Below, piece after piece: positions 14,771 to 20,280 of a DNA stretch of 64,000 nucleotides. Under the pieces are notes generated by a model. It was not told the DNA's origin. It ran no database searches and was given only the letters and a program-made list of their open reading frames with translations. The stretch covers positions 1 through 64,000 of the forward strand of contig JAHIRM010000050.1 in the NCBI GenBank assembly GCA_018818595.1, written 5' to 3'. Within the stretch, counting starts at the first letter, position 1; the number at the start of each line of letters is the position of its first letter. Made by a program: the position numbers and the translations under genes. This DNA comes from Bacillota bacterium. GTDB lineage: Bacteria; Bacillota_I; Bacilli_A; Izemoplasmatales; Hujiaoplasmataceae.

Positions 14771-14806
14771 AAAAAGGGTATCAAGTTTGAACTTGATACC
14801 CTTTTT
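14771..14806. terminator. bidirectional intrinsic terminator
   Basis: A 17-bp perfect stem (14771-14787 with 14790-14806) with a 2-base loop, A-rich on the left and T-rich on the right. It ends both the protease gene and the convergent cyclase gene. Confidence 0.92.
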
Positions 14807-14829: not shown

Positions 14830-16176
14830 TTAATCAATAATAGACATATTTCTTCCTGCGGTTTTTGCTTCATACATTCTAGAGTCCGCAAAAGCAATTA
14901 AGGATTCAATATTGACCTCTTCATGTTCTGGATAGGAAGTTCCACCAATACTAATTGTTACTTTGATAGATTGAGAATTATGTTTAATTTCCATATCTTC
15001 AACAATATGACGTATTTGTTCAGCTGATTTCATTAAATCCTCTTTTGAAGCTCCTGATAAAACAATGATAAATTCTTCTCCACCATATCGAAAGAAGACA
15101 TCGCCTTCTCTGACTGAACTTTTAACGGTTTTAGCAATTTCTTTTAATACTTTATCGCCTACGATGTGTCCATACGTATCATTGACAACTTTAAAATGAT
15201 CTATGTCAAACATTAAAATTCCTATAGGCATATCATAACGAATTGATCTTACAAATTCTTCTTTAAATCTTTGCATGCCAAAGCGTCTGTTTAAGATACC
15301 AGTCAATGGATCGTTTGCGGCAAGTTTTTGAAGTTGACTGTATGTAATTGAATTCTTAAAGGCTAAAGACATACTCTTAACGAATAAATTAAGCATTTTT
15401 TGATGATAATCAGTAAACGTAGAAGTACCGGCTAAGATGACCAAACCAAGTGTAACCTCTTTATAGAGAATCGGTTCCAAAAGAACAGTTTTTGGACGAA
15501 AATCAACAAGTAATCCATTTAACTCCAGATCTTCAGGAATATCAATTAAAATTTTTCCTGAATGTTTTAAACTATTCCATACTAGGTCACTTTTAAGAAG
15601 TTTTTCAGGATATAAAATTCCAGAAGAATAAAGAATTTCAAGTTCCCCTTCCTTTTCAATTAAGATGGCTCCGCCATTTGCATTCAAATCAAGCATTAAA
15701 TGTTGAAGAGATTCTTCTCCAAGCTTATTCAAATCAAGGTGAGTTGATAACATTTCAGTAAAAGATTTGGCTTTTTCTGATGATTGAAATTCTTTTGATA
15801 AAGATGAAACTAAAGAATTAAATGATTTTGCACTTTCGCCAAATTCATCTTCAGAATCGATTGGCAAGAAGCAATCTTCATCTAAACAATAATTAATATT
15901 AGCAGAATCTTTTCTTTGCATTATTCTTGTCTCAACTTGTTTCATATGTTGTGAAAGTTTTATGATTCTTTTTCCAACTATTTTTCTTGAGAGGAAAATA
16001 TTAAAGAAACCAACTAAAATTCCCGCAATGATACATAAAACAAAAAAGAGTGGAGTTAAAATGTACTCTGATGGTGTTCCTGTTATTAAAACAAAAAAAG
16101 GAAAAATCACGCCAATTACAACGCCAAATCCAATCATAAATATTGCTAAATCATTAAAAACTTTCTTGGTAATCAT
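14830..16176 (-). CDS. membrane diguanylate cyclase with GAF-like domain
   Basis: A 448-residue protein with two membrane helices (about 5-60), a HAMP-like linker, a GAF-like sensory region (about 130-275) and a C-terminal GGDEF domain. The active site is GGEEF at about 365, with an RxxD inhibitory site (REGD) exactly five residues before it, so product feedback is expected. The substrate-binding segment FDIDHFKVVND is intact. It should make cyclic di-GMP from two GTP in response to a cytoplasmic signal. The start at 16176 has AAGGAGG on the minus strand; a TTG 15 bp upstream overlaps that site. No PDE or c-di-GMP riboswitch was recognised in the window. Confidence 0.92.
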   Translation of the reverse strand: MITKKVFNDLAIFMIGFGVVIGVIFPFFVLITGTPSEYILTPLFFVLCIIAGILVGFFNIFLSRKIVGKRIIKLSQHMKQVETRIMQRKDSANINYCLDEDCFLPIDSEDEFGESAKSFNSLVSSLSKEFQSSEKAKSFTEMLSTHLDLNKLGEESLQHLMLDLNANGGAILIEKEGELEILYSSGILYPEKLLKSDLVWNSLKHSGKILIDIPEDLELNGLLVDFRPKTVLLEPILYKEVTLGLVILAGTSTFTDYHQKMLNLFVKSMSLAFKNSITYSQLQKLAANDPLTGILNRRFGMQRFKEEFVRSIRYDMPIGILMFDIDHFKVVNDTYGHIVGDKVLKEIAKTVKSSVREGDVFFRYGGEEFIIVLSGASKEDLMKSAEQIRHIVEDMEIKHNSQSIKVTISIGGTSYPEHEEVNIESLIAFADSRMYEAKTAGRNMSIID

Positions 16177-16354
16177 GAGGGCCTCCTTCAAATCACATTA
16201 AGACGAATTTTGATTTGTTAATTGTATTATATCATAAATAGGAAATGTATTTCTATGGGAACAGATTTATAGATTAATATTTGTTTTGCATTTATCTAAA
16301 TAGGATAAACTTAATCAGTCAAACAAGATTTGTTTAAAAAGCAAAGAATAATGT

Positions 16355-16383
16355 TTGACAATGTGTTACATTTAAAGTACTAT
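16355..16383 (+). promoter_or_regulatory. consensus sigma-A promoter
   Basis: TTGACA (16355-16360), a 17-bp spacer, and TACTAT (16378-16383). It is one of the best promoters in the window, but no coding gene follows for 500 bp; it drives the RNA candidate next to it. Confidence 0.8.
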
Positions 16384-16389
16384 GATGAA

Positions 16390-16600
16390 TAGGCTTGCCC
16401 CCAAGCGAGTCGTGAATTAAAACTGCTACTGCCAAGTAGCAAAACTTGTCCTAACGCGGAAGCGTTTGGACATTTTATTTTGGAAGTAGAGATATAGAAA
16501 GCAGACAGATTTAGAGCAACCTAATTAGCTCCCTACGATGGTTGTTGATAATTTGGCTAATCTAATACTGATAATTAAGAGAATCACCATAAAACGGAAT
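16390..16600 (+). ncRNA. structured non-coding RNA candidate
   Basis: Downstream of a consensus promoter lie three compact hairpins in a row: GCTTG/CAAGC (16393-16406), GCTACT/AGTAGC (16425-16440), and a 10-position stem at 16448-16471 closed by a GGAA tetraloop with one U-U mismatch. Further on, CAACC (16517-16521), ATTAGC (16524-16529), GGTTG (16540-16544) and GCTAAT (16556-16561) are ordered so that they could form an H-type pseudoknot. No reading frame fits. The size of about 200 bases and the pseudoknot would suit a large conserved RNA such as the raiA motif, but I cannot assign a family. The 3' end is unclear: no T-run terminator was found. Confidence 0.6.
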
Positions 16601-16624
16601 TATTGCGACTTGTGAATGAATATG

Positions 16625-16633
16625 TGGTATAAT
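16625..16633 (+). promoter_or_regulatory. extended -10 promoter
   Basis: TGGTATAAT, an extended -10, about 260 bp before the DUF2188-type gene. No clear -35. Confidence 0.5.
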
Positions 16634-16894
16634 TATATTGTGAAAATAATGGAATTTAATTTTATAAATTAAATCAGATTTAATAATTACTAAGTCGTAT
16701 AATCGTGATTGATATTATTTAAATTTTAATTTTAGGAAAAGAAACCAAAAAAAACGATATTGATTGGAGTTTTAGAGAGAAAAATAATTCAGATAGTATT
16801 CTTTGCATACTGGTGTACACATTTATTGATCTTTTACAAAATCATAAGAATTCTATATCTATTAAATAATAAATATAGGAAGGAGGTTTTGAGA

Positions 16895-17113
16895 ATGGCA
16901 CTGATGAGTAATTATACTGTCTTTTTAGATGAAACAACAAATAAATGGGTTGTAAGAAGACACGGTTCTGTAAAACAATCTGATGCTTTTGATACTCAAG
17001 CAGAAGCAGTTGAGAGAGCGAAATTCTTGGCAGGTAAGACAGTTGGAAAAGTAAATATCATGAATAAAGAAGGAAAAGTAAGAGCACAAGCCTTAAAATC
17101 AAATAAGAAATAA
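16895..17113 (+). CDS. small DUF2188-like protein
   Basis: A 72-residue protein whose pattern (YTVFLDETTNKWVVRR, then Ala/Glu-rich helix DAFDTQAEAVERAKFLA and a final strand) matches the DUF2188 fold of small proteins of unknown role. The C-terminus is basic. The start at 16895 has a near-perfect AGGAGG; longer in-frame starts upstream lack one. A terminator follows. No partner gene is adjacent. Confidence 0.8.
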   Translation: MALMSNYTVFLDETTNKWVVRRHGSVKQSDAFDTQAEAVERAKFLAGKTVGKVNIMNKEGKVRAQALKSNKK

Positions 17114-19005: not shown

Positions 19006-19108
19006 ATATGAAAATATAGTTTGTAAATATAATATAACGCAAAATGAAGTAAAATGCAATACCGTATATGAAAATAATGTTGACAATATGAAAATAAAGG
19101 CGTATAAT
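19006..19108 (+). promoter_or_regulatory. consensus promoter with three phased direct repeats
   Basis: TTGACA (19080-19085), 17-bp spacer, TATAAT (19103-19108): a consensus promoter for the ice-binding protein gene. ATATGAAAATA occurs three times in the same direction, at 19006, 19066 and 19086, i.e. 60 and 20 bp apart, roughly whole helical turns; the last copy fills the promoter spacer. This looks like an activator or repressor site, though AT-rich DNA makes chance possible. The rest of the gap back to 18809 shows nothing. Confidence 0.65.
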
Positions 19109-19161
19109 GAAATTAGCTAGGATCAAATCAGACACGAGTATCACGAATGGAGAACAACTAT

Positions 19162-20280
19162 ATGAATAATAATAAAATTTTTATCGCATTAAAAGTAATA
19201 TCACTTATGCTATTTGCAGGAATAGGATTGACACTTGTTGCATGCAACACAACGACAACAACAACGTCAGCGATATCAACTTCTGCAACAACCACTACTA
19301 CTACGAGCACAAACGCCACGACTACAACAACTGAAGAACCAGTCATTTTGAATGCAACATTGACCGATCTTAGTATTGATGGAACAACCGTAATGGGATT
19401 TAGTCCATCAACAAATGATTATGTTTTGGTTTTATCTTCAGATGTGACTGAAACACCTACCGTCGAAGCAGTGAAATATGCAGCTGAGTCTACAGTTGTC
19501 ATTGTAGATGCAGTTAATATCGAATCAGAAGAAGCAAGTGACAGAACGACGACAATAACTGTTACCACAGAAGACGAATTGACAGTAAATGTATATACAG
19601 TCTTATTTGAATCAACTATCGCGCCTGTTTCATTAGGAACAGCAGATGATTTTGTACTATTAGCAAAAACAGGAATCGATACTGCAACTAGTTCAATAGT
19701 TACAGGAGATATTGGTGTAAGTCCAGCAGCGGCTACTTATATTACCGGATTTTCGTTGATTTTAGATAGTACAACTACATTTTCAACTTCAATTCAAGTC
19801 GTAGGCCAAGTTTTTGCCAGTGATTATACTTCACCAACAGGAACGATTCTTACTACAGCAATTTCAGATATGGAAACAGCATATATTGAAGCTGCAGGAA
19901 GAGCAGCAAATTACAACGAATTATACGCAGGTGATTTAAGCGGAAAAACTTTAACCACTGGAGTATACAAATGGAGTAATAGTGTATTAATTAACACAGA
20001 TCTTACTTTAACCGGAAGTGCAACAGACGTTTGGATCTTTCAAATTGCTGGAACATTAACACAAGCTTCAGGAATAAACATTACATTAGCTGGCGGAGCA
20101 GTAGCTGAAAACATTGTTTGGCAAGTTGCTGACACAGTAGCCATTGGAACAGGAGCTCATTTTCAAGGTACGCTTCTTGCAATGACAAACATCGTTTGTG
20201 AAACGAGTGCCTCAATTGATGGAAGTCTTTATTCTCAAACAGCAATTACACTTGATGCATGTACAGTTACAAAACCTTAA
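19162..20280 (+). CDS. ice-binding-like (DUF3494) lipoprotein with cadherin-like domain
   Basis: A secreted lipoprotein of about 372 residues. It has a signal peptide ending in the lipobox LTLVAC, a long Thr/Ser linker (about residues 30-60), a cadherin-like beta-sandwich (about 65-150: LTDLSIDG, GFSPSTNDYVL) and a C-terminal DUF3494 ice-binding-type beta-solenoid (about 155-372: GDIGVSPAAA, AGDLSGKTLTTGVYKW, VWQVADTVAIGTGAHFQG). Family members bind ice or act as adhesins at the cell surface. The start at 19162 has GGAG nine bases upstream; ATG 19147 has no site. It has its own consensus promoter and terminator, so it is monocistronic. Thr-rich linkers recur in the lipoprotein at 32678. Confidence 0.9.
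   Translation: MNNNKIFIALKVISLMLFAGIGLTLVACNTTTTTTSAISTSATTTTTTSTNATTTTTEEPVILNATLTDLSIDGTTVMGFSPSTNDYVLVLSSDVTETPTVEAVKYAAESTVVIVDAVNIESEEASDRTTTITVTTEDELTVNVYTVLFESTIAPVSLGTADDFVLLAKTGIDTATSSIVTGDIGVSPAAATYITGFSLILDSTTTFSTSIQVVGQVFASDYTSPTGTILTTAISDMETAYIEAAGRAANYNELYAGDLSGKTLTTGVYKWSNSVLINTDLTLTGSATDVWIFQIAGTLTQASGINITLAGGAVAENIVWQVADTVAIGTGAHFQGTLLAMTNIVCETSASIDGSLYSQTAITLDACTVTKP

Follow-up and report, generated by a model that had tools for sequence, protein, structure and literature searches.

The window that we analysed, a 64,000-nucleotide stretch of DNA, comes from an uncultured relative of Acholeplasma, and the candidate RNA described here occupies a spacer between two of its genes. 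The divergent neighbour on the minus strand (14830-16191) encodes a membrane-anchored GGDEF protein, a diguanylate cyclase (Pfam PF00990). Downstream, on the plus strand, lies a gene for a DUF2188 protein (16895-17113; PF09954) with a strong ribosome-binding site. No open reading frame (ORF) of at least 60 amino acids was found within 16201-16760 on either strand, and the reading frames that cross the candidate RNA unit are only fragments of 20-33 amino acids. The unit has a G+C content of 0.42-0.45 (0.45 at 16389-16481 and 0.42-0.43 at 16390-16509), whereas most of the spacer around it lies at 0.16-0.23. Long, G+C-enriched spacers are the typical setting of structured RNA genes (PMC8632094).

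At the 5' side of the unit, a sigma-70-type promoter was read directly from the plus strand at 16355-16383, in which TTGACA (16355-16360) is separated by a 17-base spacer from TACTAT (16378-16383). The initial annotation had described this promoter as one without a gene behind it, and both our reading of its elements and the ORF scan bear this out. The promoter matches the consensus at 10 of 12 positions; its -10 box agrees at four of six and lacks the extended TG. Promoter-like sites matching at 10 or more positions number 49 on the two strands of the window, and nine of these carry TTGACA without a mismatch. Taken alone, the promoter is not exceptional.

Three successive hairpins, one with a GGAA tetraloop, had also been noted behind the promoter, and all three could be located on the plus strand. 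In H1 (16392-16411), GGCTTGC (16392-16398) pairs with GCGAGTC (16405-16411) around a C-rich loop, with GCTTG-CCCC-CAAGC as an alternative register. H2 (16424-16441) is predicted to fold as TGCTACT-GCCA-AGTAGCA, with its arms at 16424-16430 and 16435-16441. H3 (16447-16472), TGTCC-T-AACGC-GGAA-GCGTT-T-GGACA, carries the GGAA loop and a single T-T mismatch between arms at 16447-16457 and 16462-16472, and its energy is -13.9 kcal/mol. The fold of 16389-16482 reaches -33.5 kcal/mol (z = -5.13), a value equalled by none of 1000 shuffled sequences, and H1 and H2 without H3 give z = -4.08. The three-hairpin part exceeds chance. Among sliding windows on the plus strand, 16390-16509 was prominent (z = -4.22), and one AT-rich window, 16590-16709, scored similarly (z = -4.3); the latter holds an AT-rich hairpin, in the region of GAATTTAATTT-TATA-AATTAAATC, in the 5' leader of the DUF2188 gene.

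The U-tract TTTTATTTT (16473-16481) begins immediately after H3, and the two together (16447-16481, plus strand) score as an intrinsic terminator with d = 13.4 on a d'Aubenton-type scale. This value ranks sixth among the 17 terminator sites scored on both strands of the 64 kb. When these sites were compared with the ORF list, 13 lay just behind genes and three within coding sequence (d = 12.7, 3.7 and 0.6); the H3 terminator was the sole one neither behind nor inside a gene. In a shuffled control, twelve windows yielded five sites with d of at least 13, or 0.42 per window, and since the window holds 49 promoter-like sites, our arithmetic gives about 0.02 promoter-terminator pairs at most 150 nt apart as expected by chance. 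A consensus terminator scan did not list H3, probably because of the T-T mismatch in its stem. On the minus strand, the same scan picked up a terminator-like stem at H2, which we rejected as a candidate; it is absent from the d-score list and has no promoter nearby.

Because H3, which runs directly into TTTTATTTT, has the score of an intrinsic terminator, the unit is best read as a small RNA (sRNA) of about 92 nt, 16389-16481 on the plus strand, its start placed from the -10 box and its 3' end from the terminator. The U-tract had been overlooked in the initial annotation, and the single RNA that it drew over 16390-16600 is probably too wide; a length of about 200 bases, near that of the raiA motif or 6S RNA, gives way to an apparent 3' end at about 92 nt. 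That a structured non-coding RNA lies behind the promoter is, in contrast, well supported by the fold z-score, the G+C island and the pairing of the promoter with an orphan terminator. The case carries a lesson about boundaries: a plain consensus scan missed a terminator, probably because of a T-T mismatch in its stem, and once that terminator is recognised, a supposed 200-nt pseudoknotted RNA becomes an ordinary sRNA.

We put a probability of roughly 0.6 on the reading that 16389-16481 is a free-standing sRNA gene whose product is most likely a trans-acting regulator. The basis is sequence computation, which yields a promoter, hairpins, a terminator, no reading frame and no known family; own promoter, own terminator and lack of an ORF are features of such sRNAs, and the unit shows all three. 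A small RNA gene, though of an ordinary kind, is probably real. The housekeeping-type promoter would start an RNA of about 92 nt, which would fold into the two hairpins H1 and H2, and transcription would stop near the end of the U-tract behind H3. Such an RNA could pair in trans with target mRNAs through the C-rich loop of H1 and the A/U-rich linker at 16412-16423. The candidate resembles the intergenic trans-acting sRNAs of low-G+C Gram-positives and Mollicutes in having its own promoter, a length within 85-170 nt, a few hairpins, an intrinsic terminator as the last of these, and a C-rich loop; it differs from them in being known from sequence alone and in having no sequence relative in our searches. 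Predictions for Mollicutes include sRNAs of 85-167 bp (PMC5088518). If transcribed, the candidate would add one more orphan sRNA gene to a little-studied Acholeplasma-like lineage.

A promoter, a terminator and then a gene on the same strand is also the layout of an attenuator, and the DUF2188 gene at 16895 lies on the same strand as the unit, with no other plus-strand terminator scored ahead of it. The unit might then be the 5' part of the DUF2188 transcript; termination at H3 would be regulated, and the pseudoknot further on would belong to the read-through mRNA. Yet the gene starts 414 nt past the terminator and apparently has a promoter of its own, a possible extended -10 promoter, TGGTATAAT, read from the sequence at 16605-16634 on the plus strand; it probably serves this gene, and the consensus scan lists an overlapping site at 16610-16639. 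Nor did we find a good antiterminator, since blocking the 5' strand of H3 would cost 13.8 kcal/mol, and no known riboswitch family in Rfam matches. Moreover, the RNA is missing beside the two close orthologues of DUF2188 (74-76% identity). We therefore regard a leader or attenuator, one of the two main rivals of the sRNA reading, as unlikely.

The remaining part of the initial annotation concerned elements ordered as an H-type pseudoknot. The four segments do occur in that order, with CAACC at 16517-16521, ATTAGC at 16524-16529, GGTTG at 16540-16544 and GCTAAT at 16556-16561, but they lie 3' of the terminator, and a pseudoknot integral to the RNA is not supported. The helices can be extended to 7 + 7 bp, AGCAACC/GGTTGTT (16515-16521/16540-16546) and ATTAGCT/GGCTAAT (16524-16530/16555-16561), and the possible pseudoknot then spans 16515-16561 on the plus strand. 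Its loops of 2, 9 and 8 nt have the proportions of a classical H-type pseudoknot. In a simple stacking-energy search, an equally good pseudoknot arose in 1% of 300 shuffles of a 138-nt sequence and in 3.5% of 200 shuffles of a 211-nt sequence. The complementarity is modestly unusual, which is suggestive but weak, given that the pseudoknot was picked post hoc. Nested folds place these bases preferentially in a longer stem, CAGATT/AATTTG, whose use of loop 3 puts it in competition with the pseudoknot. Furthermore, the motif CTAAT/ATTAG is repeated in this region, including in the DNA palindrome CTAATTAG, and these repeats could instead be operator repeats in the DNA. Under the terminator model, the pseudoknot would be present in read-through RNA only. 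A marginally significant pseudoknot to which it assigns no role is, conversely, a point against the sRNA model, as are the imperfect -10 box and the failure of our searches to return a homologue from the sampled relatives, which leaves cross-species selection without a sign.

The pseudoknot would be accounted for if the RNA were a structured one of about 200-230 nt, with H3 internal and the pseudoknot integral, or if read-through gave rise to short and long isoforms. The fold of 16390-16600 (z = -3.28), the classical loop lengths and the shuffle p values of 0.01-0.035 are in line with this, and isoforms have a precedent in C. difficile, where ModT/raiA occurs in a short and a long form of 215 and 260 nt that differ at the 3' end (PMC11706538). 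However, a U-tract directly after H3 is hard to reconcile with an internal hairpin, the segment 3' of the terminator (16483-16600) is not unusually stable (nested-fold z = -0.61), and there is no apparent 3' end near 16600. A possible helix closing the 5' and 3' parts appeared in one minimum-energy fold only, its register being our own reading of that fold, and pair probabilities gave it no support; the possible operator repeats argue in the same direction. This longer RNA, the other main rival, seems to us quite improbable. It is very unlikely that the locus represents a new, lineage-confined class of structured RNA of about 230 nt, for which termination would give a short form and read-through a long one that carries the H-type pseudoknot.

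The initial annotation had proposed a comparison with Rfam and had named the lack of a match among the outcomes that would speak against its candidate. Rfam gave no match at gathering score anywhere in the 64-kb window, and at E ≤ 10 nothing credible within 16200-16900, where only two chance snoRNA matches appeared. ARAGORN detected no tRNA or tmRNA in the window. Neither of the two RNAs to which the candidate had been likened matched by covariance model. The raiA motif has a core of about 210 nt with two pseudoknots and stems P1-P8, and 6S RNA is a long rod-shaped hairpin with a central bubble. The raiA model (RF03072) found nothing in the window at gathering score, nothing in 16200-16900 at E ≤ 10 and nothing in the genome at E ≤ 0.001; the genome search is weak alone, as 14 control genomes also gave no match, and the exclusion is therefore carried by the searches of the window. 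Like raiA/ModT, which has pseudoknots, the candidate would be a free-standing RNA behind a housekeeping promoter (PMC11706538). Unlike it, the candidate is probably less than half as long, with its hairpins in a row and at most a single pseudoknot, past the terminator, and we rejected this identity. The 6S model (RF00013) matched neither the window nor the genome, while it did match in five control genomes; 6S RNA is likewise free-standing and of intergenic origin, but the three separate hairpins of the candidate contrast with its one long rod, and this identity was rejected too. A divergent copy of tmRNA, RNase P RNA or SRP RNA was excluded because each of these was found elsewhere in the genome, all above the cut-offs. 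A loose resemblance had also suggested a tracrRNA; the window has no Cas9-sized ORF, and this reading was set aside.

To look for relatives, we ran BLAST over 61 related genomes. Besides the window itself, it returned just short and weak matches, with no homologue among those inspected; of three that were read, none was an RNA homologue, and two apparently fell in coding sequence. Phage and plasmid sequences gave one marginal match of 25-26 bases each, and viral contigs contained no exact H1 or H2 pattern. Covariance models built from the single sequence, R1 (181 nt) and R2 (96 nt), were run with fast prefilters, R1 over genomes from the order (90), the phylum (392) and the family (34), and R2 over 40 relatives. 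No homologue appeared among the matches inspected, which were part of the weak ones, and models of this type reach only fairly close homologues. The best matches in two relatives proved to be real terminators that end convergent genes and align to H3 and its U-tract, which favours the reading of H3 as a terminator. Others that we opened and rejected were a terminator after a stop codon and an apparent valS. The RNA was also missing from the regions upstream of GGDEF orthologues (41-70% identical; L041-L046 and L074), among them the 60% identical locus of an Acholeplasmataceae MAG (L074), and upstream of the DUF2188 orthologues (L052 and L053). Lack of homologues in these searches, together with an unexceptional promoter, would suit an AT-rich spacer in which the hairpins arose by chance or are what is left of some other, decayed element; the z-score of -5.13, the G+C island and the rarity of such promoter-terminator pairs make a non-functional origin doubtful, and we hold it to be of low probability. 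A lineage-specific regulatory sRNA is our best reading of the sequence.

The nearest relatives of the DUF2188 protein, at 74-76% identity, are encoded in two genomes from another family of the order, and matches within its own family reach just about 30-36%; this cross-family pattern points to possible horizontal transfer of the gene. For the GGDEF protein, close relatives (40-48% identity) turned up in MAGs that carry the labels Desulfobulbaceae, Desulfomonile and Chromatiales, which would reflect either misbinned contigs or horizontal transfer. Further along the window, 19147-20280 encodes a protein with an ice-binding-like domain (PF11999) after a threonine-rich stretch, and a perfect promoter, TTGACA-N17-TATAAT, lies upstream of it at 19080. 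On the other side of the locus, 14771-14806 holds a two-way terminator between convergent genes, in which a perfect inverted repeat of 17 bp is accompanied by A and T tracts.
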